Source of the DNA: Actinomycetota bacterium
Lineage (GTDB): Bacteria; Actinomycetota; Humimicrobiia; Humimicrobiales; Humimicrobiaceae
DNA: 64,000 bases
Assembly: GCA_028698215.1 (NCBI GenBank)
Contig: JAQVDY010000001.1
Coordinates: forward strand, 1 to 64,000
Direction of reading: 5' to 3'
In this document: positions 3,591-56,882 of the stretch, piece after piece
How positions within the stretch are numbered: position 1 is the first letter of the stretch
Layout: each line of letters starts with the position of its first letter
Program-made: the position numbers and the translations under genes
Notes under the pieces: model-generated
What the model was told of the DNA's origin: nothing
The model's input: the letters and a program-made list of their open reading frames with translations, nothing else
Database searches by the model: none

Positions 3591-5171
3591 TTACTCCCTG
3601 TATAAAATTTTTTCCAACTTCAAGAAAACCTTTGGCATACCTTCCAGCAAATCCGTGGCTATCATGGAGGTCTTGCTGGTATGCCTCGATATCAAATCTG
3701 AAGCCAATCCATGGATATAGGTTCCGCCGACCGCAGCCTGAAAGTTATCCATACCCTGGCACATCAATGAAGAAATAATACCGGTAAGTATATCCCCGGT
3801 CCCGGCGGTAGCTAAAGCCCAGTCACCCGTATTATTGATAAAAGTAGTCTGGTCCTGCCTGGTAATTAGGGTACGGGGCCCTTTTAATACTGACACCAGG
3901 TTAAACTTGGATGCCGCCTCTACATTAACTTCATATCTTTGTTCCAGTTTTATACGGTCCATACCCATTATTAAAGCCAGCTCTCCGGCATGAGGGGTAA
4001 TTACCACATGAGAAAAATCCGGATGTTGCTGTCCATTTACTTCCCGGGGCCCATAGATAGCCGCCAGTCCGTCCGCATCCAGCACTGTGGGTTTGGCCAC
4101 TCTCATCAGAATTTCCCTTACCAGCCTGATGGTGCTGGAATTTTTAGATATGCCCGGCCCAATAGCCAAAGCATCATAACCGGCGCTTAGGTCTATTATC
4201 TCTTCCAAGCTGTCATAATGGATAGACAAATCATCAGTCTGGTCTACAGGATAAGTCATAACTTCAGTAAGCTTCTGCTCTAATATAGGGTTTAGCTCCC
4301 AGGGGCAAACCAGGGTGACCAGTCCCGCTCCCGCCCTCATAGCTGCCTGGCAGGTCATGGCTGCTGCCCCGGTAAATCCTACTGATCCTGCTATGACCAG
4401 CAGTTTTCCCACACTATGCTTATAAGACCAGGGTGACCTTAAGGGCAGCTTGGAAGCCACCCAGTCCATGCTGGTCTCAAATATCTGCTCGTATTGTTCA
4501 AAATATTTTTCAGGTATGCCGATATCTGCTACCTTTACCTTGCCTGCATAACTGGCCCCCGGATAATTTAGAAGCCCCAGTTTCTTGCACCCAAAAGTTA
4601 TGGTAGCATCTGCCTTTACCGCTGTACCTAAAATTTGTCCTGTATCGGAGTCTATCCCCGATGGAATGTCCACTGCGTATACTTCACTGCTGCTGCGGTT
4701 TATCTCTTCAATTATCTTTTTGGCGGGGCCGTATATGTCTTTGCCGTGCAGCCCGGTGCCAAAAATAGCATCTATAATGAAATGGGCATCTTGGACATCC
4801 TGTTTAAAGCTATCCCAGGACGGGCCATTGTCTACATTCAAAAACATTACTTTAGCTCCTGCTGCTTTACCCAGCCGGTTAAAATAATGGGTTGAATCGC
4901 TGCTGAATTTTTCGGTAGGAGTTATATAAAATACCTTAACGCCTATCTTGGCCTGCAAAAGGTCATAGGCAGCTACAAAACCGTCTCCCCCATTGTTGCC
5001 GCCGCCGCAAATAACTATCCCCTGGACCTCTTTTTTGTTTTTGAAATCTGCTTTGACGGCTTTGGCTACACTGCTGCCCGCATTCTGCATCAGCCCCTTG
5101 GAATCAATCCCGTCACTGATACAGCGTGCATCTATTTCTGCTATCCTGCTGCCTTTTAGTACCCTATGCAT
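3591..5171 (-). CDS. nnr: Bifunctional NAD(P)H-hydrate epimerase / ADP-dependent dehydratase
   Basis: A 526-residue two-domain repair enzyme for hydrated NAD(P)H. The N-terminal YjeF_N epimerase (about 1-215) has CGGGNNGGDGF and DAIFGTGLHG. The C-terminal ribokinase-like dehydratase (about 230-520) has AIGPGISKN, VLDADGLAA, TPHAGELALIMG and the catalytic GTGDILTG. The full fused form is intact. Its position between acpS and alr matches actinobacterial gene order. Confidence 0.92.
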   Translation of the reverse strand: MHRVLKGSRIAEIDARCISDGIDSKGLMQNAGSSVAKAVKADFKNKKEVQGIVICGGGNNGGDGFVAAYDLLQAKIGVKVFYITPTEKFSSDSTHYFNRLGKAAGAKVMFLNVDNGPSWDSFKQDVQDAHFIIDAIFGTGLHGKDIYGPAKKIIEEINRSSSEVYAVDIPSGIDSDTGQILGTAVKADATITFGCKKLGLLNYPGASYAGKVKVADIGIPEKYFEQYEQIFETSMDWVASKLPLRSPWSYKHSVGKLLVIAGSVGFTGAAAMTCQAAMRAGAGLVTLVCPWELNPILEQKLTEVMTYPVDQTDDLSIHYDSLEEIIDLSAGYDALAIGPGISKNSSTIRLVREILMRVAKPTVLDADGLAAIYGPREVNGQQHPDFSHVVITPHAGELALIMGMDRIKLEQRYEVNVEAASKFNLVSVLKGPRTLITRQDQTTFINNTGDWALATAGTGDILTGIISSLMCQGMDNFQAAVGGTYIHGLASDLISRHTSKTSMIATDLLEGMPKVFLKLEKILYRE

Positions 5172-5202
5172 GTAAACCGCCTTTAATATGGTAATTAAGG
5201 AT

Positions 5203-5211
5203 ATTATAACA
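5203..5211 (-). promoter_or_regulatory. Possible extended -10 promoter before nnr
   Basis: On the minus strand the acpS-nnr gap contains TGTTATAAT, an extended -10 element with a perfect TATAAT. No good -35 is seen at the proper distance. It would give nnr-CBS-alr their own transcript. Confidence 0.35.
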
Positions 5212-5235
5212 AAAAAAACGGATATAATTGAAAAC

Positions 5236-5619
5236 TTATGGTTTTAAAGCCACTGCAAAAGCCACCGCATAATTTTTGGTGGCAGAAATTGAAACTTCTA
5301 TCCGGGATATGCCCAGTTTCTTTAGCAGCAAAGCCCCCCTGCCTTTAATGGTAACCCGGGGCTGCCCCGGACCGGAAATTTCAATATCTGAAAAAGAAAG
5401 GTCTGCCCCAAAGCCGGTACCTAATGATTTAGCCACTGCTTCCTTAGCAGCAAACCTGGCCGCATAGCTTCCCCAGCAGCCCTGGCCCCTGCTCTGGCAA
5501 TAGCTCCTTTCTTCCGGGGTAAACACCCTGGAAACAAAGGAGGGGGTTTGCTTGATAGAGTCAGCCACCCTTTCTACCTCGATTATGTCCGTACCCACAC
5601 CAAAAATATCCAAGATCAC
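5236..5619 (-). CDS. acpS: Holo-[acyl-carrier-protein] synthase
   Basis: A 127-residue AcpS-type phosphopantetheinyl transferase, which moves the 4'-phosphopantetheine of CoA onto acyl carrier protein. The N-terminus has the metal-binding motif GVGTDIIEVERV (Asp 9) and the mid-region has RFAAKEAVAKSLGTG with the metal Glu. The length is typical. The start is GTG (5617-5619), overlapping the glmS stop as GTGA, so the two genes are translationally coupled. Confidence 0.92.
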   Translation of the reverse strand: MILDIFGVGTDIIEVERVADSIKQTPSFVSRVFTPEERSYCQSRGQGCWGSYAARFAAKEAVAKSLGTGFGADLSFSDIEISGPGQPRVTIKGRGALLLKKLGISRIEVSISATKNYAVAFAVALKP

Positions 5620-7451
5620 TCCACAGTAACGCTTTTAGCCAGGTTCCTGGGCTGGTCCACATCTCTGCCCAGGTTTTTGGCAATATAATAAGAATACAGC
5701 TGCAAGGGAATAATAGTAAGTATCCCTGACAGCGGCTGGTCTATGGGGGGTATGAAGAAACAGTAATCAATAGCTTTTTTTAGCTCATCGTTCCCCTGGG
5801 TAGTTATGGCCAACAGGGTTGCCTTTCTGGCCTTGGCTTCCTGTACATTACCCCATATCTTTTCATAAACATCGTCCAGGGGCATGATGCCTACCACTAC
5901 CGTATTGCGGTCAGTTAAGGCAATAGGCCCATGCTTCATTTCTCCTGCCGGATATCCCTCTGCATGGATATAGCTTACCTCTTTTAGCTTTAAGGCCCCT
6001 TCCAAAGCCATGGGCAAGCCGTACAGCCGGCCTAAAAACAAGAAACAACTGTACCGGTAGGTTTTATCTGCTATTTTTTTAATCTGCTGGCTTTGGTCCA
6101 ATACCTGCTGTACCTTTTCCGGCAGGGATAAAAGCTCCCTTATAATACGGCGGTATTCCTTATCACCAATAACTTTTTTAGCCTTCGCCAGGTACAGGGC
6201 CAATAAATATATTACTACCAGCTGGGCAGAAAAGGTCTTGGTTGCACAAACCCCTATCTCGGGCCCGGCATGAGTGTAGATGACTGCATCTGATTCCCTG
6301 GCAATAGTACTGCCCACCACATTGGTAATGGCTGCTACTCTAGCCCCTTTTCCTCTTGCTTCCCTTACTGCAGCCAAGGTATCAATGGTTTCCCCGGACT
6401 GGGTAATAGCTATAACCAGGCAATGGTCTCCCACCATGGGATTACGGTACCTATACTCGGACCCATAATCCACTTCCACCGGTATTTTAGCCCATTTCTC
6501 TATGACCTGCTTGCCTGCTAAAGCAGCATGGTAAGAAGTGCCGCAAGCTATTATCTGCACCTTTTCTATATCATTTACCTGCTGTACAGAGAATCCTAGC
6601 TCTGCAAAATTAAGTTCCTGTTCAGTCAGCCTCCCCCTCATGGTTTCCCTGATTCCATAGGGTTGTTCAAAAATCTCTTTTAGCATAAAATCTGCATATC
6701 CCGCTTTTTCTGCACTTTGAATATTCCAGTTAACCCTAAACGGCTTTTTGGTAACCGCCTTGCCGTCTGGTCCAAATATTTCTACGCTTTCCGGAGTAAC
6801 CCTTACCGTTTCATAATCTTCGATAATTAAAAAATTCCTGGTATGTTCTAAAATAGCAGGCATATCCGAAGCCAGGAAATTCCCTTTAGGCGATACTCCT
6901 ACCACCAGGGGGCTGGCTATCCTGGCTGCTGCCAGCTGGTCCGGCTCGTCCAGGCATATGGCCACCACCGCACCGGAACCTTTAATACGGGCCATGGTTT
7001 TCTGCATGGCAGCAATAAGGTTACCCTCATAATATTTTTCCAACAAATGAGGCAGTACTTCTGAATCAGTTTGAGATATAAACTGGTGCCCCTCTGCTTC
7101 CAGTTCAGCCTTTAGCTGCTGATAATTTTCTATAATACCATTATGGACTACCGCAATTTTTTGGCTGCAGTCAAGGTGTGGATGGGCATTTTCCCTGGTG
7201 GGTTCGCCATGAGTAGCCCACCGGGTATGGCCAATACCGCAATTTCCAGCAACCATGGAAGAATCAAGGCTGTTTTCCAGCTCCCTTATCTTGCCTGCTT
7301 CTTTTACCACTTCCAGCGTAGGTATGGTGCCGTTCCTACTTATAATGCTGATACCGGCTGAATCATAGCCCCTGTATTCCAGCCTTTTTAAGCCTTCCAG
7401 CAGCAGTTTCCGGCAATCCTGGTTACCAGTATAGGCCACTATACCGCACAT
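5616..7451 (-). CDS. glmS: Glutamine--fructose-6-phosphate aminotransferase (isomerizing)
   Basis: A 611-residue enzyme making glucosamine-6-phosphate for peptidoglycan and amino-sugar synthesis. The N-terminal glutaminase begins MCGIVAYTG, with Cys2 as nucleophile, and has GHTRWATHG. Two SIS domains follow, the first with CGTSYHAALAGK and ITQSGETIDT. The end DQPRNLAKSVTVE is the canonical C-terminus. The ribosome site AGGAGG lies just before ATG. Only 71 nt separate it from the upstream gene and no glmS ribozyme was recognised. Confidence 0.96.
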   Translation of the reverse strand: MCGIVAYTGNQDCRKLLLEGLKRLEYRGYDSAGISIISRNGTIPTLEVVKEAGKIRELENSLDSSMVAGNCGIGHTRWATHGEPTRENAHPHLDCSQKIAVVHNGIIENYQQLKAELEAEGHQFISQTDSEVLPHLLEKYYEGNLIAAMQKTMARIKGSGAVVAICLDEPDQLAAARIASPLVVGVSPKGNFLASDMPAILEHTRNFLIIEDYETVRVTPESVEIFGPDGKAVTKKPFRVNWNIQSAEKAGYADFMLKEIFEQPYGIRETMRGRLTEQELNFAELGFSVQQVNDIEKVQIIACGTSYHAALAGKQVIEKWAKIPVEVDYGSEYRYRNPMVGDHCLVIAITQSGETIDTLAAVREARGKGARVAAITNVVGSTIARESDAVIYTHAGPEIGVCATKTFSAQLVVIYLLALYLAKAKKVIGDKEYRRIIRELLSLPEKVQQVLDQSQQIKKIADKTYRYSCFLFLGRLYGLPMALEGALKLKEVSYIHAEGYPAGEMKHGPIALTDRNTVVVGIMPLDDVYEKIWGNVQEAKARKATLLAITTQGNDELKKAIDYCFFIPPIDQPLSGILTIIPLQLYSYYIAKNLGRDVDQPRNLAKSVTVE

Positions 7452-7479
7452 AAAACCTCCTGGTGATGTTTACAGTATG

Positions 7480-7506
7480 CAAATTAAATAAATCCCCATA
7501 GGGATT
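7480..7506 (-). terminator. Possible terminator/attenuator upstream of glmS
   Basis: On the minus strand a 6-bp stem AATCCC/GGGATT with a 4-nt loop (7491-7506) is followed by TTATTTAATTT. It lies between the racemase-like gene and glmS, and could reduce read-through from the ribosomal operon. Confidence 0.4.
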
Positions 7507-7522
7507 GTCTAAAATTTATTCC

Positions 7523-8518
7523 TTACTGTCCTATAAAATTCTTATACACAAAAGGAGAAGTCATAGTTGATAATAGACTAAAATAATTTATATTAAAAGT
7601 TATTTTATGGCCCATGGCAAACAACAGCTCCCCTCTTGACTCCAATACTGTATGATCGCTGCTTTGGCCTACTATTTCCATACCGGGAGCAGGCTTTAAA
7701 TTAGCCGCATCTGCATCCTGCAGCCCCAATGCCACTATGGCCTTCCGCGGATTTTCCTTTACCTCTATTATTTCCGCTTCCAATGTAAAACAGTCCCTGT
7801 GAGCACCTTCTAGGGTAGAATAATTCAAGGTTTCATGGCCCAGAAGTATGGCCTCCCCAATCCTTAACTGGTTTATGCCTTCCGGTAGGCCAGAACCAAA
7901 CACCTGGTCCAGTAAACTGGAATTACCTCCGGATAAAACAGGGATAGCAATACCCAGCTCCCTGTAAATCCTATGCTTTAGTTCTACCATGGCTGACAAA
8001 CTTTCATAACTGGGTTTTTTACTGGAAATGCAGCGGGCATTAGTGCCCAGCCCCATAACCTTGATGTTTTCCAGCTCAACCAGCTGACGGCAAAAAGGAA
8101 GTACCTGGTAAGGCAGCAGGCCCTCTCTCTGGTCATCAGTATCCAGCATAACCATCACTGAATGGGTAATTCCCTTTTTTCCGCATACCTGGTTTATCAG
8201 CCTAGCTGCCTCTATCTGGGTACAAGCGCTTACCTGGCTATAGGCGGCAGTATGTTCTGCCTCACTGAGCATAGGGGTCCTGAGCTGCATTAAGGGATAG
8301 TTAAAATTAGCCCTTAGCTGGCGCAGGTTATCCAGCCTGCTGTCGCCCAGCATATCTATTTTGCCACTGGCCATAGCCTCTACTATCCTGGTGTGGGCCA
8401 ATACGCTCTTAGTAACAGCAACGACCGATATGCCTAGAGCGGCACACCGGTCGCAGATTATCTTAGAATTATGGGCAATTTTGCCCCTGTCAATGTTTAG
8501 TCGGGGATACGTCACCAA
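7523..8518 (-). CDS. Alanine/ornithine-racemase-family PLP enzyme
   Basis: A 331-residue fold-III PLP protein of the Orr type. The N-terminus has the PLP lysine in VVAVTKSVLAH (about residue 37). It also has a DMLGDSRLDNL motif, GLGTNARCI, and a phosphate-binding SGGNSS segment near residue 207. It is related to but distinct from Alr. Known relatives racemise ornithine or other basic amino acids, but the substrate here is not determined. The frame opens at TTG, with GTG as the next codon. It lies 7 nt after rpsI, where actinobacteria usually have glmM. Confidence 0.75.
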   Translation of the reverse strand: MVTYPRLNIDRGKIAHNSKIICDRCAALGISVVAVTKSVLAHTRIVEAMASGKIDMLGDSRLDNLRQLRANFNYPLMQLRTPMLSEAEHTAAYSQVSACTQIEAARLINQVCGKKGITHSVMVMLDTDDQREGLLPYQVLPFCRQLVELENIKVMGLGTNARCISSKKPSYESLSAMVELKHRIYRELGIAIPVLSGGNSSLLDQVFGSGLPEGINQLRIGEAILLGHETLNYSTLEGAHRDCFTLEAEIIEVKENPRKAIVALGLQDADAANLKPAPGMEIVGQSSDHTVLESRGELLFAMGHKITFNINYFSLLSTMTSPFVYKNFIGQ

Positions 8519-8525
8519 ACCATTA

Positions 8526-8921
8526 CTACCTCTTTGAGAACTGGGGTCTTTTTCTTGCTTTTTTCAGGCCATATTTCTTTCTTTCCTTCTCCCGGGGATC
8601 CCTGGTAAGCATGCCTTCTTTTTTAAGTATAGGCCTGTATTCTGCATTAATTTCTAACAGGGCCTTGGCTATGCCATGCTTTAAGGCATCAGCCTGGGCA
8701 TTGACCCCTCCACCGATAATACTAGCCAATACATCATAAGCATTATCAGTACCAGTGAGCTTTAAAGGCTCCTTTATTTTAATTACCAGCGAAGGAAGGG
8801 GGAAATAATTATCCAGGTCTCTTTTATTGATAGTTATTTTCCCTTCGCCTGGAACCAGTCTTACTTTGGCTATAGCTTCTTTTCTTTTCCCGGTAGCATA
8901 ATAACTTACACTGTCTGCCAA
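8526..8921 (-). CDS. rpsI: 30S ribosomal protein S9
   Basis: A 131-residue S9 with the N-terminal YYATGKRKEAIAKVRL, the middle SIIGGGVNAQADALKHGIAKALL and the C-terminal tail KKARKRPQFSKR, whose last Arg contacts P-site tRNA in known ribosomes. It starts at TTG (8919-8921) with GAGGA about 8 nt upstream. It pairs with rplM 13 nt upstream, as in nearly all bacteria. Confidence 0.95.
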   Translation of the reverse strand: MADSVSYYATGKRKEAIAKVRLVPGEGKITINKRDLDNYFPLPSLVIKIKEPLKLTGTDNAYDVLASIIGGGVNAQADALKHGIAKALLEINAEYRPILKKEGMLTRDPREKERKKYGLKKARKRPQFSKR

Positions 8922-8934
8922 CTTAAATTCCTCC

Positions 8935-9378
8935 TCAAATCTCTATTTTTTCAGGTTTCTGGGCCTGGTGCTCATGATTATCACCAGCATAAACCTTTAA
9001 TTTTTTAAAAATCTGCCTGCCCAGCCGGTTATGGGGAAGCATGCCCTTTATAGCCAGAGAAATAACTTGCTCCGGTTTTTTGGCCAGCTTCTCTTCCAGT
9101 GTCTGTACCTTAAGGTTTCCCACATACCCAGAATGCCTGTAATATTTTTTTTGCTTAAGTTTATCTCCGGTAACCTTAATATCCTTGGCATTTATAACAA
9201 TTACATAATCTCCGCAATCCACTGAAGGAGTAAAGATAGGTTTCCCTTTTCCCCTTAACAGCTTAGCTGCTTCTGTGGCCAGCCTGCCCAATGTTTTGCC
9301 CTGGGCATCGATTATGTACCACTTTCTTTCTATTTCTTCTTTTTTAGCATAAAAAGTTTTAATTCCCAATTCTGTCAT
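8935..9378 (-). CDS. rplM: 50S ribosomal protein L13
   Basis: A 147-residue L13 with the family motifs [35 protein letters not shown] and [11 protein letters not shown]. It binds 23S rRNA early in assembly. It sits directly between truA (13 nt) and rpsI. Confidence 0.96.
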
Positions 9379-9391
9379 TATCTTCCTCCCA

Positions 9392-10129
9392 TCAGTATAA
9401 GACCTTGGTCAGGAACAATCCCTTGGCAGGCGCAGTTTTGCCAGCCAGTTCCCTATCCCTTGCCTCTAATGCCTTTTCAATAGATTCCAGGGTCCTTAAT
9501 CCCTTTCCCAGCTCCAGTATGGTACCTACCATAATCCTAACCATATTGTATAGGAAGGAGCTTGCCTCTATATTAAAAATTATTAAATTATCACTGTTCC
9601 CTGTAATATGGAAACTGTATACCGTTCTTACCGTACTGCCATATTCGGCCTGGTTGCCAAAAGCCCTAAAATCTTTCCGCCCTATAAACAACCGGGCTGC
9701 TTTTTGCATCATTTCCAAATCCAGCTTCTGGGTAATCAATATGCTGTACTTCCTTAAAAAAACACTCTGTACATTACCATTGACCACATAATAGCTGTAT
9801 ATCCTTCTTACTGCATCCCTTCTGGCATCAAAATCACAGCCAACCCTGCTGATATCCCTGATACAGATATCCTGGGGCAAAACACAATTTAGGGACCATT
9901 GAAAACGATAAACATCAATTTCCTGATTCAGCTTAAAATTAACCACCTGGTGCAAGGCATGCACGCCTGCATCCGTTCTTCCCGCATAATTTATGCTGAC
10001 CTTATAACCTGCTACCTGGCCCAGGGCTTCCTGCAGACACCCCTGTATGGTAGCTTTGCTGTCTGGCTGGATCTGGAAACCGCAGTATTCGGTTCCATCA
10101 TACTCAACCACAGCTTTGTAATTTACCAT
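9392..10129 (-). CDS. truA: tRNA pseudouridine(38-40) synthase TruA
   Basis: A 245-residue pseudouridine synthase acting on positions 38-40 of tRNA anticodon arms. The catalytic Asp lies in [11 protein letters not shown] (about residue 52), and [12 protein letters not shown] is the conserved C-terminal motif. Length and domain layout are normal. The order rplQ-truA-rplM-rpsI is common in Firmicutes and Actinobacteria. Confidence 0.95.
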
Positions 10130-10160
10130 GGTTACTCCAGCCTTCCAATTTTCAAATAAA

Positions 10161-10520
10161 CTACTCTACCAGCTCCATAATAACCATCTGCGCATTATCG
10201 CCTAAACGGTTCTTGTATTTTAAAATCCTGGTAAAACCGCTGGATCTTTCATACATACCGGGAGCCACTTCATTAAAAAGTCTCTGTACAGCCTTATAAT
10301 TGCCTAAAAGCCTCAGGCAGTTTCTTCTGGCTGCCAGATTATCCTTTTTAGCTATGGTTATCAATTTATCTACAAACCCTCTCAGCATTTTAGCCTTGGG
10401 TAGGGTTGTGGTTATTCTTCCATGCTCAAACAGGGAAATAGCCATATTGGCCATCATTGCCTTTTGGTGACTGCTATCCTGCCCAAATCTGGGCCCTTTT
10501 TTTGGTACTACCATATCCAA
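10161..10520 (-). CDS. rplQ: 50S ribosomal protein L17
   Basis: A 119-residue L17 containing RFGQDSSHQKAMMANMA, ITTTLPKAKMLR and SGFTRILKYKNRLGDNA. It lies at the tunnel exit of the 50S subunit and is the last classic alpha-operon gene, 16 nt after rpoA. The N-terminus is a few residues longer than usual (MDMVVPKKG). Confidence 0.95.
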   Translation of the reverse strand: MDMVVPKKGPRFGQDSSHQKAMMANMAISLFEHGRITTTLPKAKMLRGFVDKLITIAKKDNLAARRNCLRLLGNYKAVQRLFNEVAPGMYERSSGFTRILKYKNRLGDNAQMVIMELVE

Positions 10521-10536
10521 TCTTCTCCTGATTTAA

Positions 10537-11472
10537 CTATTTTTTCTTAAAGGATAAACCTAGGTCCTTTACCTTATCTTTAACTTCCTGTATGGACTTC
10601 TGTCCAAAATTCCTAATATCCAACAACTCATCTTCAGAATAATTAAGCAATTTCTCTACCGTATCAATACCTTCCCTTTTTAAACAGTTGTAAGCTCTAA
10701 CCGATAGCTCCAGCTCTTCTATGGAAGGATAATGCGGTTTTTCTTCTTCTTCTTTTACCTCTTCAAAAATAGGGTCATCTTTATTGGCATTATCAGAAAG
10801 ATCAATCAGCAAAGCCATGTAATCATTAATAATTTTAGAAGCCTGGCTTAACGCATCTTCAGGTTTCATGCTGCCATTGGTATTGATATCCATAATCAGC
10901 CGGTCGAAGTTGGTCATCTGGCCCACCCTGGTATTCTCCACCTTAAAAGAAACCTTCTTAATAGGTGAAAAAATGGTATCCAGCGGGATTACTCCTAAAG
11001 CATCGCCTTCCACAGAATTCTCTGCGGCTGTTTTATAACCTTTTCCTTTTTCCAATATCAGCTCAGCCTTTAAATCCCCATCCTTGCTTAGGGTAGCCAG
11101 GTAAGCATCGGGATTAATAATCTCCACTTCTGAACTCAGCTTAATATCAGAAGCCTTGATTACCCCTGCCCCTTTCTTGGACAGCTTTAATTTAACCGGC
11201 TCCTCGGAATCCATCCTAAACACTATTTGCTTCAAATTAGCCACAAATTCCAGTATATCTTCCTTCATACCCTTAAGGGTTGAAAACTCATGTTTAACAT
11301 CCTCTATCTTGATCCTGGTTACTCCCACTCCCTCTATGGAAGAGAGAAGCACTCTCCTGATGGAATTGCCCAGGGTGTGCCCAAAGCCCCTTTCCAAGGG
11401 CTCTACCAGAAATTGTCCATTATAATCGTCTGTATGTTTAACCGTAACTTTTGGTTTTTGCATTTTAAGCAA
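10537..11472 (-). CDS. rpoA: DNA-directed RNA polymerase subunit alpha
   Basis: About 311 residues. The N-terminal domain carries EPLERGFGHTLGNSIRRVLLS, used in assembly and dimerisation. The C-terminal domain (about 240-311) holds ELSVRAYNCLKREGI and LLDIRNFGQKSIQEV, which bind UP elements and activators. The frame opens at 11490, but the first codons are the ribosome site itself (GGGAGGT). TTG at 11470-11472, 10 nt after GGAGG, is therefore preferred; ATG at 11461-11463 is an alternative. An acidic linker (EEVKEEEE) joins the domains. Confidence 0.94.
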   Translation of the reverse strand: MLKMQKPKVTVKHTDDYNGQFLVEPLERGFGHTLGNSIRRVLLSSIEGVGVTRIKIEDVKHEFSTLKGMKEDILEFVANLKQIVFRMDSEEPVKLKLSKKGAGVIKASDIKLSSEVEIINPDAYLATLSKDGDLKAELILEKGKGYKTAAENSVEGDALGVIPLDTIFSPIKKVSFKVENTRVGQMTNFDRLIMDINTNGSMKPEDALSQASKIINDYMALLIDLSDNANKDDPIFEEVKEEEEKPHYPSIEELELSVRAYNCLKREGIDTVEKLLNYSEDELLDIRNFGQKSIQEVKDKVKDLGLSFKKK

Positions 11473-50477: not shown

Positions 50478-52136
50478 TTATTTTATGCTGCCTTCAAATA
50501 TTGAAGCAAGCAGTTCCTGTCTTTCCTCGGCAGTAGTAAGCCGGGGCTGGCTGTAATCTTCCAGCATGGTAGTAATAAGTTCTGTGCCTATATGCCTGTT
50601 TTCATAAAATACATGCCTGGCTATAATGCCCTGCCTCATGCCCAGGCTCCTCATCTGGTCAAAGAAAATATTGCCCAGCCCGTAATTTATAAAGCCCTCC
50701 GGCTTAAACTCTACTCCCATGGGATGATGGGACTGGCTTCCGCTTACGATGCTGGCCCCGGCATCTACCATACGGCCAAAATCTATTACTTGCTGTTCGG
50801 TAGGGTAATAATTATATGTTTCTACATATTGAAAAGTGAATATCACATTATAGCCCTGGCTTTTAAGATCAGCCGTTATGGCCTCCAAATCCTCCAGGTT
50901 AGGCGGAGTGGAGCCAGGCGAATCTTCAGTAGCCCAATCATAAGCAGGACCCCAATAATTACATCCTAAAAAGGCGATCTTGTTGCCCCCTATTTCAAAT
51001 AAAGCAGGCTGGTAGGAATCTTCCAGGTCTCTTCCTCCGCCGAAATAAGGCAAACCTGCTTCATCGTAAATGTCCAGGGTGTATTCCATCCACTGGGGAC
51101 CGTAATCATTCATATGGTTTCCAGTAAGCTCTACCACATCGGTTCCCACATGCTGAAGCAGTTCAAAATATTCGGGCTTGCTGCAAAAAACCAAGGCGCT
51201 GTCCCTGGCTCCTGTACAGCCTTCTACAAAAGGTATCTCATTGCTGATATGAGTTATATCAGCTGCCAGCAGGGTATCTGTTATCTGTTCTGCAGGATAA
51301 AGAATCCCATTTTGCTCCATACGGTTGGCGGTACCCCTTACCAGGGCGGTAACCCCGGTCATGTTTATGGTAAGCATTTTGTCTGTATCCCGGTTACTGA
51401 GCTGGTAGCCATCCAGTATTTCAGCCAAGGGAAGCAAGAATTGCTCTTCCCCTTCCAATTTCAGGCCCAGCTGCAGGGGATAATTATCCATGGGAGCATC
51501 TTTAGCCAGTACTGATATGCCGTCCAGGTAAAGCACTTTGTATTCCTTCTTTATTTCATCGAAAGGAACTATGGAAAAATTACCCCCTTCGGCCAAGGCC
51601 GCTGCCAGCTCATCTTCATTTACTACCCTAACCTGCCCAGCCTGGATGGGGCCCAAAACCGCTTCCAGAAGGCTTAAGTTGGAGTCAGTTATTACCAGCT
51701 CCATTTCCAGAGAGGTTCCCTTATCCCAGAAATCCTTAAGCTGATCGAAACTAATCTCATCAGTTAAATTAAAAAAACCGGTTACGGGAGCAAAGACCAA
51801 GGATATGGATTCCAAACCATCCTGCAGTTCCAAACCTATGCTAATGTCTGCAGCCTGGGCGTCATCTGAAATCTCCGAATGGGGGAAGGTTTCTTTGGCC
51901 GCCTGGGTTATGACTGCACCTAAACTAGCGGGGATAGAACTGTCTATAGCCACAGATACCGGCTCTGGAGGTTCGGCCTGTTCTGGTTCGGCCTGTTCTT
52001 CAGGTTTTTCTTCCACCGTAGCCTCTCCCTGGCTTACAGGCTGGGCTGTTTCCGGTTCAGTTGCCTGGCACCCGGAAAAGGCAATAACCAAAATCAGGGG
52101 TAAAATTACGCATATGGCAAGCTTAAGTCTTTTCAT
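50478..52136 (-). CDS. CapA-family lipoprotein
   Basis: A 552-residue secreted protein. Residues 1-24 are a lipoprotein signal (lipobox AFSGC), followed by a Pro/Glu/Gln-rich linker to about 55. The middle, up to about 255, resembles a substrate-binding-protein-like domain. The C-terminal CapA metallophosphatase-like domain has GVTALVRGT, SNEIPF, ELTGNHMNDYG, SGSQSHHPMGVE and INYGLGNIFFDQ. CapA proteins take part in poly-gamma-glutamate or related envelope functions. No cap operon accompanies it. Confidence 0.82.
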   Translation of the reverse strand: MKRLKLAICVILPLILVIAFSGCQATEPETAQPVSQGEATVEEKPEEQAEPEQAEPPEPVSVAIDSSIPASLGAVITQAAKETFPHSEISDDAQAADISIGLELQDGLESISLVFAPVTGFFNLTDEISFDQLKDFWDKGTSLEMELVITDSNLSLLEAVLGPIQAGQVRVVNEDELAAALAEGGNFSIVPFDEIKKEYKVLYLDGISVLAKDAPMDNYPLQLGLKLEGEEQFLLPLAEILDGYQLSNRDTDKMLTINMTGVTALVRGTANRMEQNGILYPAEQITDTLLAADITHISNEIPFVEGCTGARDSALVFCSKPEYFELLQHVGTDVVELTGNHMNDYGPQWMEYTLDIYDEAGLPYFGGGRDLEDSYQPALFEIGGNKIAFLGCNYWGPAYDWATEDSPGSTPPNLEDLEAITADLKSQGYNVIFTFQYVETYNYYPTEQQVIDFGRMVDAGASIVSGSQSHHPMGVEFKPEGFINYGLGNIFFDQMRSLGMRQGIIARHVFYENRHIGTELITTMLEDYSQPRLTTAEERQELLASIFEGSIK

Positions 52137-52258: not shown

Positions 52259-52717
52259 ATGCCTATTTTTGCTAAAAATGAAAACACCAAGGCCAGTAAA
52301 ACAGTTACTTTAATTGCAGAAGGAGTAAGCATAGAAGGCAAAATTTATTCTCCGGGTTCTACCCGGATAGACGGTTCCCTGAAAGGGATGATCATTTCCG
52401 AAAAGGAACTTATAGTGGGCAAGGAAGGCAAAGTTGAGGCTGATGCTAAAACCAACAACGCTACTATTGCCGGCTCTTTTAAGGGAGATATCATAGCTTC
52501 CGGGGAAGTGGAGATAACCTCTACCGGCAAACTTATAGGAAACTTAACCCAGAAAGATGCCTTACTAACCGTATCCAAGGGTGGAGTTTTTAAAGGGGAA
52601 AGCAAGATATCGGATAATGCTGATATCTTCAAAATGGGAAAAGAGCAGATCATACCAGAGCATAAACCGGCTGATGGGAAACCAGCCTCCATACATCCCC
52701 AAGTCAATCGATTCTAA
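52259..52717 (+). CDS. Bactofilin family cytoskeletal protein (1)
   Basis: A 152-residue bactofilin: a repetitive beta-helix core (about 14-125) with TLIAEGVSIEGKIYS, STRIDGSLKGMI and EVEITSTGKLIGNL, and a short disordered C-terminus. Bactofilins polymerise without nucleotide and scaffold envelope or chromosome-segregation proteins. ATG follows AGGAGAG. It converges with UPF0280, 18 bp away. Confidence 0.9.
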   Translation: MPIFAKNENTKASKTVTLIAEGVSIEGKIYSPGSTRIDGSLKGMIISEKELIVGKEGKVEADAKTNNATIAGSFKGDIIASGEVEITSTGKLIGNLTQKDALLTVSKGGVFKGESKISDNADIFKMGKEQIIPEHKPADGKPASIHPQVNRF

Positions 52718-52735
52718 TATCTGATATAAAATAGT

Positions 52736-53491
52736 TTATGGGACCAGCTGTACCTGTCCCCATATGCCTATGGTCTTATCTTTTAAAGCCAGCAGCCCCA
52801 AAATACCCTTTTGGCTTTTAAATTTTTCAATAGCCCGTTCGACGTGCTCCGGACTTGATATGCAGTTGGCCATAGCAGTAGCCGCAGCATCCGCCGCTAT
52901 GGCAGTGGTAGCTAAAACACAGGCAATATCTGCCTTTCCCATGCTAAAGGAATGGCCGAACTTTCCAGAGGAGCAGCAAAGCCCGCAGGGAGTAACCTGA
53001 TGTGGAATATGTAAGTTTATATTATTGGTCAGATTGGAGTTAGCGGTAAAAACCTGGGCGGTGATGTCTTGACTGGACTTGATATAGGTGTCGCCTCCAT
53101 TTTCAATTATCAGCTCAGAACACCGGGTCCCTGTCTTTTGGCCCAGATAATCGCACACAGCCCCGGCTACCGCCGCCATGGGGCCTACCTTAAACTGCCG
53201 GGATTTAGCCAGCATCTGTCCAATTACCGGGGCATACTCTCCAGGTAAAGCCACTGGAGACAAGGCCTTGAGAAACACTGGGTTTTTATCAATTACAGTT
53301 TCAATTGCTGTATAGAATTTTACCAGATAGCCGGCAATATAGGCTGCTACATCCTTATCGCTGGCTACATAGAGGTCACTATGCCGGTAATTTATGTTCC
53401 ATCTGTATGGCAGGCGGGTGCTTATTTTGCTGCGATAAATATCCCTGTCTGCAGTGAGCTTATTTATTTTTGGGTTAGAGTTAGCTGACAC
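52736..53491 (-). CDS. UPF0280 (ApbE-like fold) family protein
   Basis: A 251-residue protein with NYRHSDLYVASDKDV, the UPF0280 signature VGPMAAVAGAVCDYLG, ELIIENGGDTYIK and ADAAATAMANCI. Relatives occur mostly in methanogens and anaerobes and share the ApbE fold; function unknown. The frame runs up to 53578, but that part overlaps the upstream gene. GTG at 53489-53491 after AGGA (4-nt gap) shares one base with the upstream stop (TAGTG) and is preferred. Confidence 0.85.
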   Translation of the reverse strand: MSANSNPKINKLTADRDIYRSKISTRLPYRWNINYRHSDLYVASDKDVAAYIAGYLVKFYTAIETVIDKNPVFLKALSPVALPGEYAPVIGQMLAKSRQFKVGPMAAVAGAVCDYLGQKTGTRCSELIIENGGDTYIKSSQDITAQVFTANSNLTNNINLHIPHQVTPCGLCCSSGKFGHSFSMGKADIACVLATTAIAADAAATAMANCISSPEHVERAIEKFKSQKGILGLLALKDKTIGIWGQVQLVP

Positions 53492-53679
53492 TATTTCCTG
53501 CCAATACCGCCATAATAAAGGTAAATCAAAAAAATAACTACAAAATAGACAGCCACAGTAACTGCCAGCATGGCCCAATTAACAGTATTAAAAAGGTACA
53601 TGGCCATTATCATGATAGGGATTAAAAATACTGTAGATACAATACTTAGTATCAGAGGATTCTTATATCTAGGTTTCAA
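53491..53679 (-). CDS. Small two-helix membrane protein
   Basis: A 62-residue protein with two membrane helices (about 8-28 and 33-57) and a short basic C-terminus. No family recognised. Its stop TAG overlaps the GTG start of the UPF0280 gene by one base, so the two are probably translationally coupled; a link between them is inference. Confidence 0.6.
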   Translation of the reverse strand: MKPRYKNPLILSIVSTVFLIPIMIMAMYLFNTVNWAMLAVTVAVYFVVIFLIYLYYGGIGRK

Positions 53680-53704
53680 AGGGGCCAGAACCTCCTAAGC
53701 TCTG

Positions 53705-54196
53705 TTAAATTTCAAGATCCTGGGAATAGTCATCCTGCTGATCGTCTAAATTTACCTCATCTTCATCTTCTTCTGCTGGTTCCGGTTCTTCCTGTTCAGC
53801 CTCAGGTTCAATCTGTTTAGCATTAATCCTGGTAACATTTCCGCTAAAGATTCCGCCTTTGTTTATAATCAGTGAATCTGTTTTTATATTTCCATTTACA
53901 AGACCATTTTCTTTGATTTCTACTGAGTCGGCAGCTTCCATGTTTCCCTCGTACTTACCTATAACTTGAGCAGTAATGGTTTTAACATCAGCATTAACAT
54001 GGCCATCTTTTTTAATAACCAGTTCTCCATCAATTTCCAGCTCCCCTGAAACCTCACAGTCAATTTCTATAGATTTTGAAACTACAAATTTTCCCTCAAT
54101 CTTGGCATTGTCTCCGCTGATGGTGAGCAGAGTCCTGGCCTCTCCTGGAGCCTGGTAATCATTTTCTTCGATATTTTCCTTGTTGATGAACGCCAT
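53705..54196 (-). CDS. Bactofilin family protein (2) with acidic tail
   Basis: A 163-residue bactofilin. The beta-helix core (about 22-125) has AKIEGKFVVSKSIEIDCEVS, ELEIDGELVIKKDGHVNADV and GLVNGNIKTDSLIINKGG. It is followed by about 35 highly acidic residues (EPEAEQEEPEPAEEDEDEV). It shares the fold but not the tail with the copy at 52259-52717. It lies 85 bp downstream of the ParA-like gene. Confidence 0.88.
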   Translation of the reverse strand: MAFINKENIEENDYQAPGEARTLLTISGDNAKIEGKFVVSKSIEIDCEVSGELEIDGELVIKKDGHVNADVKTITAQVIGKYEGNMEAADSVEIKENGLVNGNIKTDSLIINKGGIFSGNVTRINAKQIEPEAEQEEPEPAEEDEDEVNLDDQQDDYSQDLEI

Positions 54197-54281
54197 CTAC
54201 AACCCCCCTGTGGATATTGGTTTATTAATAATTATAATGATAAATATATATTAAATAGTTTTAATAATTTTTACAATTATT

Positions 54282-55133
54282 TTACTTGAAATAGAATTCG
54301 TCTTCCCGGCCAGCTATTTCTGCACATAACTTCAACATCTCCTGGGCTGCTTCTGAGCCTGGATAGGCAGTAAATACCGGTTTCCGGGCCACAGCTATGG
54401 ATTTCTGGTAGTCTGATAGATACCTGATTTTATTCTGGTATATCCTGATGCTGTCTCCGTATCTGTGCTGTAGCTCCTCTGCCAAAAACCGGGCATCTTT
54501 TTTCCTCTTTTCAAATGAATTTATAATGACCCCCACAATCTTTATATTAACATAAAAATTTTTTTCCAGGCTGCGTATTATTTTCTGAAGATACTTGATA
54601 TCTAAAAAAGAAAAAAGTTCCGGCCTTATAACCACCATTATGTTTTTGGCATACACGATAGAGCTGGTGGAAAGCAGCGAATAATTAGGCTGGGAATCTA
54701 TCAATATATAGTCATAGCTGGATTCAGGGATATAGTCTTCCAGCACTTTCTTTATAATTTGGTTTCTGTATTTGGAACGGTATATTATTCTTTCTTTAAA
54801 AGTCCTGTTTATTATGTGATCGGTTAGATATTCTTCTATCAAGGAAATATTATTGGAAGAAGGCAGAAGGTCCATATTGCGGGACACTTTAATGATATAG
54901 CTGGATAGGTTTATTTCTTTGCCTTCCACAAAGTTTTTAATCAGTGTTTCCAGATTTTGTCCAAATTTGCTGGCTGAGCCCAAATTAAAGGACTGCACCA
55001 GGTTTATCTGGGGGTCAAAATCCATCATCAGTACTTTTTTTCCTTTTTGATGGGAAAGATACCACCCATAGTTATAGCATAGGGTGGTTTTTCCAGTGCC
55101 CCCCTTGGCATTAAAAAAAACTATTTTTTTCAT
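54282..55133 (-). CDS. ParA/Soj-like ATPase
   Basis: A 283-residue deviant Walker ATPase. Walker A is KGGTGKTT with the signature first Lys (residues 10-17), A' is MMDFDPQINL, and Walker B lies in YILIDSQPNYS. ParA proteins move cargo or chromosomes along the nucleoid. No parB or parS-like repeat is seen. The adjacent bactofilin suggests cargo or envelope positioning, as known for ParA-bactofilin partnerships in Myxococcus. Confidence 0.85.
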   Translation of the reverse strand: MKKIVFFNAKGGTGKTTLCYNYGWYLSHQKGKKVLMMDFDPQINLVQSFNLGSASKFGQNLETLIKNFVEGKEINLSSYIIKVSRNMDLLPSSNNISLIEEYLTDHIINRTFKERIIYRSKYRNQIIKKVLEDYIPESSYDYILIDSQPNYSLLSTSSIVYAKNIMVVIRPELFSFLDIKYLQKIIRSLEKNFYVNIKIVGVIINSFEKRKKDARFLAEELQHRYGDSIRIYQNKIRYLSDYQKSIAVARKPVFTAYPGSEAAQEMLKLCAEIAGREDEFYFK

Positions 55134-55311: not shown

Positions 55312-56475
55312 ATGGCTAAAACAATTACTGAAATTAATGAAAAAATAAAGCAGGGCCAAGTAGTAGTTCTGGATGCTGAAGAGATTATTGGCTATGTCCA
55401 GAAGCATGGAATAAAAAAGACTGCCCAACAGGTAGATGTGGTAACTACTGCCACCTTTGGACCTATGTGCTCTTCCGGGGCTTTCCTTAATTTTGGACAT
55501 GCAGACCCTCCCATAAAAATGGGCAGGGTTTGGCTCAATGATGTGCCGGCTTATTCCGGAGTAGCAGCAGTGGATGCCTACCTGGGCGCTACTGAAATAT
55601 CCGAATCTGATGCTGGTTATGGCGGGGCGCATGTCATACAGGACCTGCTGGAGGGAAAACCGGTTAAGCTTAAGGCCACTGCTTATGGAACCGACTGCTA
55701 TCCCCGCAAAAGCATAGAAACCTATATTACCTTAGAGACCTTAAACCAGGCTTACCTTTATAATCCCAGAAATGTATACCAGAATTATGATGTGGCTACC
55801 AATTCCTCGGATCGTACCATTTATACCTATATGGGCAAATTACTGCCCCGTTTTGGAAATGCCACTTACAGCAGCGCCGGCCAGCTTAACCCGCTGCTAA
55901 ATGACCCTTATTACCGAACCATAGGGCTGGGAACCAGAATATTTATAGGCGGTGCTGCCGGATATGTGGCCTGGCACGGAACCCAGCATAATCCCCAGCA
56001 GGAAAGGCTGGCCAATGGGACCACCTTGGGGCCGGGAGGCACCCTGGCGGTGATAGGAGACCTTAAACAAATGAATCCCCGCTATCTTAGGGCAGCCCGG
56101 TTTTACGGCTACGGGGTTACCATGTTTATGGGTATCGGGATACCCATACCGGTACTGGATGAAGAAATGGTTAAGTTCCTGAGCATAAGGGATGAAGATA
56201 TTTATACTGAAATATATGATTACTCGGTGCAGAGAAGAAACCGGCCCAGTTATGGAAGAGTTAACTACCAACAGCTCCGCAGCGGGCAGATAGACATAAA
56301 AGGCAAAAAGGTCCAGACCGGATCCATATCCAGCTATGCACAGGCTAAAGAAATAGCCCAGCATCTTAAGAAACTTATAAAAGCCAATAAATTTTTGCTG
56401 ACTGAGGCGGTAGCGCCGCTGCCTGCAGAAGAAAAATTAAAAAGCCTTGATATCTTAAGCCAGGAGGAACTGTGA
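55312..56475 (+). CDS. Homocysteine biosynthesis protein (HcyBio, DUF39)
   Basis: A 387-residue DUF39 protein with TTATFGPMCSSGAFLNFGH (conserved Cys), YGGAHVIQDLLEG, AYGTDCYPRK (Cys), RIFIGGAAGYVAWHGTQHNP and GPGGTLAVIGDLKQMNP. The Methanosarcina relative (MA1821) and its NIL-ferredoxin partner convert aspartate semialdehyde and a sulfur donor to homocysteine. The partner gene follows here with a 4-nt overlap. Confidence 0.9.
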   Translation: MAKTITEINEKIKQGQVVVLDAEEIIGYVQKHGIKKTAQQVDVVTTATFGPMCSSGAFLNFGHADPPIKMGRVWLNDVPAYSGVAAVDAYLGATEISESDAGYGGAHVIQDLLEGKPVKLKATAYGTDCYPRKSIETYITLETLNQAYLYNPRNVYQNYDVATNSSDRTIYTYMGKLLPRFGNATYSSAGQLNPLLNDPYYRTIGLGTRIFIGGAAGYVAWHGTQHNPQQERLANGTTLGPGGTLAVIGDLKQMNPRYLRAARFYGYGVTMFMGIGIPIPVLDEEMVKFLSIRDEDIYTEIYDYSVQRRNRPSYGRVNYQQLRSGQIDIKGKKVQTGSISSYAQAKEIAQHLKKLIKANKFLLTEAVAPLPAEEKLKSLDILSQEEL

Positions 56476-56882
56476 GCCAAAAGAGGAAACTGGTACTTAC
56501 TTTTAGTGAAGATATAGTAACTCAACCTATAACTTACCGGCTGGTCAAGGATTATGACCTGGCCTTCAATATATTAAGGGCAGAAATCACCCCTAACATG
56601 GAAGGCAAGATACTGATAGAAATCACCGGTAAAAAAGACAATATAGAAAAGGGAATAGATTTTTTAAAATATTCCGGGGTAAGCATACAGGAAGCAGCCA
56701 AGGATATAAGGGTGGACAAGGAATTATGTGTCTCCTGTGGCTTGTGTACATCTATCTGTATTACCCAGGCCTTGAACCTGGATAATATCAGCAAAAAACT
56801 TATATTTGATAAAGAAAAATGCATCCTTTGTGGGCTCTGTGCTAACAGCTGCCCACTGGATGCCATTAAGCTTAATATTTAG
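56472..56882 (+). CDS. NIL-domain / 2x[4Fe-4S] ferredoxin protein
   Basis: A 136-residue protein: an N-terminal NIL domain (about 1-75) and two 4Fe-4S motifs, CVSCGLCTSIC and CILCGLCANSC. This is the MA1822-type electron or sulfur-transfer partner of DUF39. The start is GTG at 56472-56474, overlapping the previous stop (GTGA), with AGGAGG about 6 nt upstream. The cysteine sets are complete. Confidence 0.9.
   Translation: MSQKRKLVLTFSEDIVTQPITYRLVKDYDLAFNILRAEITPNMEGKILIEITGKKDNIEKGIDFLKYSGVSIQEAAKDIRVDKELCVSCGLCTSICITQALNLDNISKKLIFDKEKCILCGLCANSCPLDAIKLNI

Follow-up and report, generated by a model that had tools for sequence, protein, structure and literature searches.

An orphan ParA paired with a tailed bactofilin in an Actinomycetota family, located inside a sulphur-assimilation gene module

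In the literature examined, the one experimentally shown link between a bactofilin and a ParA-type ATPase is that of Myxococcus xanthus, where the tail of the bactofilin BacP binds the ParB-like adapter PadC, and PadC binds ParA (PMC5703909). The BacP tail carries a KKKVVVKK motif (PMC12448750). Orphan ParAs have been reviewed (PMC9178275), and the cargo of ParA/MinD ATPases has been identified via gene neighbourhood (PMC10241942). Here we analyse a locus in the first 64,000 nucleotides of contig JAQVDY010000001.1 (GenBank assembly GCA_028698215.1, an Actinomycetota bacterium of the Humimicrobiaceae), hereafter the window, in which the gene for a ParA-like ATPase is followed by that for a bactofilin with a long, predicted disordered C-terminal tail (BacA). 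A preliminary description of the window had placed three further genes beside them, for a small membrane protein, a UPF0280 protein and a second bactofilin (BacB), and gene calls and domain matches confirm all five at the positions given (Table 1). The locus is composed of two modules, one of sulphur genes and one of ParA and the bactofilins. No parB-less ParA-bactofilin pair of this sort was found among the open-licence papers listed, as judged by titles and the starts of abstracts.

ParA and the tailed bactofilin BacA form a conserved pair. The survey comprised 100 genomes (G000–G099), of which G000–G034 belong to the window's own family, f1 (35 genomes). ParA orthologs are present in 17 of these 35, that of G008 being a fragment of 31 residues at the edge of a contig. 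Two ParA loci, those of G025 and G008, break off within the gene and were excluded from the count. In each of the 15 loci whose contig extends beyond ParA, BacA is the next gene called on that strand, and the ParA-bactofilin neighbourhood noted in the preliminary description is thus conserved in relatives. BacB is present in 12 of the 15 ParA loci (absent in G014, G012:C154 and G027:C1) and is convergent save in G013, where it is divergent; UPF0280 is present in eight. In genus g7 (G026, G031, G009 and G021) the ParA-BacA pair lies apart from the sulphur genes with its own copy of BacB (4/4), and a further BacB remains next to UPF0280.

A ParA profile run on 396 sampled genomes from the phylum (E ≤ 1e-25, no more than six candidates scored in each) matched 20 genomes, 16 of them with orthologs (best match at least 215 bits). 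The remaining four matches, at 99–113 bits, come from three family genomes (G007, G019 and G034) and from G225, the sole one outside the family, and look like other ParAs. No ortholog of the orphan ParA was found outside the window's family in this sample, and a comparison by eye of the ParA matches listed from outside f1 showed no bactofilin near any of them. A scan of genome contigs with ParA gave an archaeal ParA, 22% identical, as its sole match. ParA distances track those of UPF0280 (r = 0.92) and of the sulphur protein HcyBio (r = 0.92; distance correlations are given here without a significance test), which fits an ancient gene passed down vertically and lost in some lineages, and not one transferred recently.

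This ParA is an orphan. A single ParB_N protein was found in the genome. It is encoded beside a second parA, on C1 at ~110–116 kb and ~60 kb from the orphan ParA, and the parS pattern (at most two mismatches) is matched solely by two exact sites, C1:114295 and 116086. Since the only ParB_N protein sits by the second parA with parS, the orphan ParA is not the chromosomal one, and a role as the chromosomal segregation ATPase was rejected. The genome search found neither a parB nor a parS adjacent to the orphan ParA, and no second ParB_N protein at that locus or elsewhere in the genome. The preliminary description of a ParA without parB accordingly applies to the locus and not to the genome, where parB adjoins another parA; its caveat that a chromosomal parB/parS system might already use this ParA is answered by the separate parA-parB with its two exact parS sites. 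The chromosomal parA-parB adjoins gidB- and gidA-like genes (identified by eye). In L036 (~5010–11071), from the window's genome, the gidB-like gene, parA and parB come after two successive gidA/mnmG-like genes (609 and 592 amino acids (aa), by eye).

Judged by its sequence, the orphan ParA looks like an active ATPase. The signature lysine K10, the G14-K15-T16 residues, D38 and D40, and D146 of the Walker B motif are invariant in the 14 ParA orthologs aligned; the Soj entry 2bek has an alanine at the position aligned with Asp40. Also kept in 14/14 are R210, K235 and a basic side chain at position 237. R210 and position 237 align with the two DNA-binding arginines of Thermus Soj, and the protein is predicted to bind the nucleoid. 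Its predicted model has a pLDDT (predicted local distance difference test score) of 84, and its ten best structural matches are all Soj, ParA or McdA (Z 27.3–28.8, root-mean-square deviation 2.2–2.7 over 242–255 residues). Two arginines of ParA homologs have been implicated in DNA binding (PMC7229837).

The predicted model of BacA has a β core (residues 24–121) flanked by ends of pLDDT < 50 (residues 1–20 and 127–163), which we take to be disordered. All 68 full-size bactofilins of the family were sorted by best match into 24 BacA-type and 44 BacB-type proteins (one cut by a contig end), five weak partial matches being omitted (G013:C165, G025:C30, G024:C448, G015:C54 and G016:C62); start codons are the first possible ones, and some N-termini may be wrong (e.g., those of the G002 and G028 BacA). 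The preliminary description had suggested the acidic tail of BacA as the possible ParA-binding part; in the window this tail has a net charge of −17. Among tails that end in [LM]x[LI]-COOH the net charge spans −20 to +1, and tail acidity is therefore not the conserved feature and was rejected as a conserved trait; what is kept is the C-terminal tip itself. This tip is found in 16 of 24 BacA-type and 0 of 44 BacB-type proteins, and in the tip-bearing tails aspartate and glutamate make up 58% of positions −9 to −4 versus 32% of the tail remainder. The pattern does not occur inside any of the 16 tails, and the chance of a tip arising from the tails' own composition is ~0.003 per tail (same-genus tails not being independent). 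The tip is carried by 13 of 15 ParA-adjacent BacA proteins versus three of nine others (Fisher p 0.02, relatedness ignored). G004 and G010 have BacA-type proteins without the tip and no ParA ortholog. Tandem BacA-type bactofilins occur at L080:3689–4690 (G004:C119) and L044:3273–4359 (G013:C55); in G013 only the ParA-adjacent copy bears the tip, in G004 neither does.

The N-termini of the two types were also compared. BacB begins MPIFAKN in the window, and about 20 of the 44 BacB-type proteins begin MFSKK, MFSRK or MLSRK (by eye), while BacA proteins begin MSLGG, MVFS or otherwise. The published membrane-targeting peptide of bactofilins has the consensus MFSKKKK (PMC12448750). A fourth, divergent bactofilin (L054:8961–9371, G000:C30) lies by a flagellar cluster with flagellin-, CsrA-, FliW-, FlgL- and FlgK-like genes (by eye).

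Based on the conserved gene pair, the apparently intact ATPase and DNA-contact residues, the absence of ParB from the locus and the conserved tip, we tentatively propose that ParA and BacA, with BacB as polymer partner, may constitute a dedicated ParA-bactofilin positioning module, a reading in which our confidence stays somewhat below even. ATP-bound ParA would dimerise and bind the nucleoid non-specifically. BacA would co-polymerise with BacB, whose MFSKK-like N-terminus (seen in many relatives) would hold the BacA/BacB polymer at the membrane. ParA would recognise the acidic residues and LxL-COOH tip of the disordered BacA tail, and its ATPase cycle would set where the bactofilin patch lies with respect to the nucleoid. 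The mixing of the polymers, the membrane anchoring, the binding of the tip by ParA and the direction of the action, with ParA positioning the bactofilin, are what we infer, and the contact between tip and ParA would be the weakest step. BacA is encoded next door to ParA and, although its N-terminus is not positive, has a conserved tip at its C-terminus; it is therefore proposed as the protein that ParA engages. The tails of SSB and FtsZ likewise dock on partner proteins. The more specific claim, that BacA has a ParA of its own as direct partner through docking of the tip and that the nucleoid thereby positions membrane-bound BacA/BacB without a ParB-like adapter, is conceivable but doubtful. 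BacA distances correlate with those of the linked BacB (r = 0.91, and 0.86 once UPF0280 is allowed for; 11 genomes, including four from genus g7) more closely than with those of ParA, which suits a mixed polymer and lends no support to a ParA contact.

Several observations weigh against the positioning module. The known partners of ParA/MinD ATPases are reported to make contact with them through a disordered N-terminus of positive charge (PMC10241942), whereas residues 1–20 of BacA have a net charge of −5 to 0 in all 24 BacA-type proteins and are nowhere positive. In M. xanthus, ParA failed to bind the BacP tail by itself in vitro (PMC5703909); the preliminary description's statement that bactofilins there scaffold a ParA-type system needs amending, as the tail binds the adapter PadC. 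Two ParA-adjacent BacA proteins (G012:C154 and G027:C1) have neither tail nor tip and no BacB nearby, and G012 carries a tip-bearing BacA elsewhere (G012:C164) that is not ParA-adjacent. Conversely, the tip is present in G022 and G032, drafts of 90% and 79% completeness with no ParA ortholog. After removal of vertical descent, BacA and ParA distances are weakly coupled (partial 0.26 and 0.34 in two comparisons), and BacA distances also correlate with those of the UPF0280-side copies of BacB (r = 0.88).

If direct docking were true, a nucleotide-independent cytoskeletal polymer would have its own ParA, contacted through a short C-terminal peptide. The adapter of the Myxococcus type would be dispensed with, and the type of partner would differ from those of other ParA/MinD systems, with their basic peptides at the N-terminus. 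With the conserved tip, the vague "acidic tail" of the earlier account becomes a short, testable peptide.

A somewhat unlikely alternative is a Myxococcus-like scaffold, in which membrane-bound BacA/BacB would be a landmark that holds ParA, perhaps as a monomer, at a cell site, and the bactofilin would not be moved by ParA. In M. xanthus, BacNOP together with PadC recruits ParA, mostly as a monomer, to bactofilin patches, and when PadC was absent a small share of a monomeric ParA still seemed to associate with bactofilins in E. coli (PMC5703909). BacB-type bactofilins occur in family genomes both with and without the orphan ParA, as expected of a standing scaffold. What M. xanthus tethers, however, is its chromosomal ParA, whereas the ParA here is a separate one, and no second ParB_N protein that could be PadC-like was found in the genome; nor was a ParB-like adapter found encoded with the bactofilins, the sole ParB_N match in the genome being the chromosomal ParB.

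The tip could also serve a role that does not involve ParA, as a ligand of a PDZ-type protein or protease or as a degradation signal, ParA and BacA then being linked through the bactofilin core or through history only. We regard this as unlikely. It would account for the persistence of the tip in G022 and G032, for its lack by ParA in G012 and G027 and for the weak rate coupling of ParA and BacA, and the Φ-x-Φ-COOH form of the tip resembles a class II PDZ ligand. The enrichment of the tip in ParA-adjacent BacA speaks against it. As for a degradation signal, the tag encoded by the genome's transfer-messenger RNA, ADDTQLALAA, ends in LALAA, unlike the BacA tip, and an ssrA-like tag was rejected.

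That ParA is a leftover partition ATPase of a plasmid or other element, with an unseen centromere-binding partner and next to BacA through chance, is very unlikely. Its fold is closest to Soj-type ParA, plasmid ParAs reach an identity of up to ~30% among the matches listed, and in G029 and G034 this intergenic site is occupied by a TnpB-like gene (by eye); yet BacA follows ParA in every countable locus, and the correlation of ParA and UPF0280 distances is the one expected under vertical descent. Moreover, none of the best 5000 plasmid records or the 113 phage records was at least 60% identical to ParA, and BacA searched against plasmid and phage records gave just three weak bactofilins.

The remaining genes of the locus belong with sulphur assimilation. 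In Desulfovibrio, homocysteine synthesis needs DUF39, NIL/ferredoxin and COG2122 proteins (PMC5764234), and in Methanosarcina the homocysteine enzyme consists of DUF39 and NIL-ferredoxin (PMC12068725). All three genes of this pathway are found in the window, as HcyBio, NIL-ferredoxin and UPF0280. UPF0280 corresponds to COG2122, of which PDB entry 2o34 is a member. In family f1, UPF0280 is matched in 30 of the 35 genomes and HcyBio in 29. At the 21 loci where both are called (window included), the interval between them holds only the membrane gene or no called gene in 12 (gaps 77–551 bp), ParA and BacA in five (window included), BacA alone in one (G022, with HcyBio directly after BacA), a TnpB-like gene in two (G029 and G034) and another arrangement in one (G033). 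The intergenic site between the membrane gene and HcyBio thus seems to tolerate insertions. The TnpB/OrfB-like gene, which encodes a zinc ribbon (by eye; L070:3808–4962 and L071:3197–4105), fills the site that ParA-BacA occupies in the window.

The membrane gene lies immediately upstream of UPF0280 in 22 loci, of which seven also hold ParA in the stretch examined and 15 do not; nine further UPF0280 loci, some of them cut by contig ends, have no call for it. It therefore tracks UPF0280 and not ParA, which does not support its suggested function as an anchor. The small membrane gene also persists in L064 (G012:C164) and L065 (G032:C40), from genomes in which no UPF0280 match was found. Given the presence counts, the adjacency to HcyBio and the published homocysteine role (PMC5764234), UPF0280 and the membrane protein are sulphur-module genes: UPF0280 belongs to the published pathway with HcyBio and NIL-ferredoxin, and the membrane protein joins it by association. 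The presence of UPF0280 at the ParA locus is explained by the HcyBio and NIL-ferredoxin genes, which sit just outside the stretch covered by the preliminary description. A single system of all five genes, anchored by the membrane protein and with UPF0280 taking an active role, is extremely unlikely, for although UPF0280 occurs at about half of the ParA loci and the four minus-strand genes (ParA, BacA, membrane gene and UPF0280) are tightly packed here, with gaps of 85 and 25 bp and then an overlap, and may share one transcript, the distribution and neighbourhood counts speak against both proteins as parts of the ParA-bactofilin system. The cytoskeletal genes are thereby told apart from the published module of sulphur assimilation in which they lie.

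Regarding gene calls (Table 1), UPF0280 probably starts at a GTG at 53491 rather than at 53578, because the alignment of six of seven relatives opens only at residues 28–43 of the longer frame, the near relative G002 being the exception; the membrane gene ends in a TAG stop whose G is also the first base of this GTG. The NF003323 score of UPF0280 is below the equivalog cut-off of 271 bits. A gene for a lipoprotein-like protein with a PGA_cap domain (50478–52136) adjoins BacB in the window; such a gene also lies by BacB in many loci of the family, as a tandem pair in G015, G023, G028 and G012:C164.

Table 1. Features of the ParA-bactofilin locus and the adjoining sulphur genes; positions are those of the window.
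Feature	Position	Strand	Basis or remark
BacB, second bactofilin	52259–52717	+	PF04519, 79 bits (cut-off 27.9)
UPF0280, 251 aa from likely GTG start	52736–53491	−	NF003323, 216 bits; PDB 2o34, E 2.4e-28
Small membrane protein, 62 aa, two hydrophobic stretches (by eye)	53491–53679	−	
BacA, bactofilin with long, predicted disordered C-terminal tail, 163 aa	53705–54196	−	PF04519, 76 bits (cut-off 27.9)
BacA C-terminal tip LEI-COOH (consensus: acidic residues + [LM]x[LI])	53708–53716	−	BacA-type comparison
BacA predicted disordered tail, residues 127–163	53708–53818	−	Predicted model
Orphan ParA-like ATPase, 283 aa	54282–55133	−	AAA_31, 107 bits
ParA K235-I236-R/K237, second predicted DNA contact	54423–54431	−	Position 237 aligns with Arg of Soj NVR
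ParA R210 K211, predicted DNA contact	54501–54506	−	R210 aligns with Arg of YDGR in Thermus Soj; invariant in 14/14
ParA Walker A' DFDPQ, residues 38–42, catalytic-type Asp40	55008–55022	−	Invariant in 14/14 aligned orthologs
ParA deviant Walker A KGGTGKTT, residues 10–17	55083–55106	−	Invariant in 14/14 aligned orthologs
HcyBio (DUF39/COG1900), sulphur module	55312–56475	+	PF01837, 524 bits
NIL-domain ferredoxin, sulphur module	56472–56882	+	PF09383 and Fer4

Compared with known systems, the orphan ParA shares its ATPase fold and DNA-contact positions with the ATPase of chromosomal ParABS (Soj/Spo0J), but has no ParB or parS at its locus, the ParABS of the genome being elsewhere. The sulphur genes resemble the DUF39/NIL-ferredoxin/COG2122 pathway of Desulfovibrio in that UPF0280 occurs with HcyBio and NIL-ferredoxin genes; they differ in the membrane gene upstream of UPF0280, which the available text on the published pathway does not mention. 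With the orphan ParA/MinD ATPases McdA, PpfA/ParC and PomZ the protein has in common a ParA fold, the lack of its own parB/parS, a likely partner encoded next to it and predicted binding to the nucleoid, whereas the partner here is a bactofilin without a positively charged disordered N-terminus. In the BacNOP-PadC-ParA system of M. xanthus, too, a ParA is linked to a bactofilin polymer whose C-terminal tail is long and disordered, and the bactofilin gene bacM, directly downstream of the parAB operon, is the nearest known arrangement (PMC5703909). In M. xanthus this ParA is the chromosomal one, whereas here a separate ParA lies by a bactofilin without parB, and where the BacP tail has KKKVVVKK, the BacA tail of the window ends in an acidic LxL tip.

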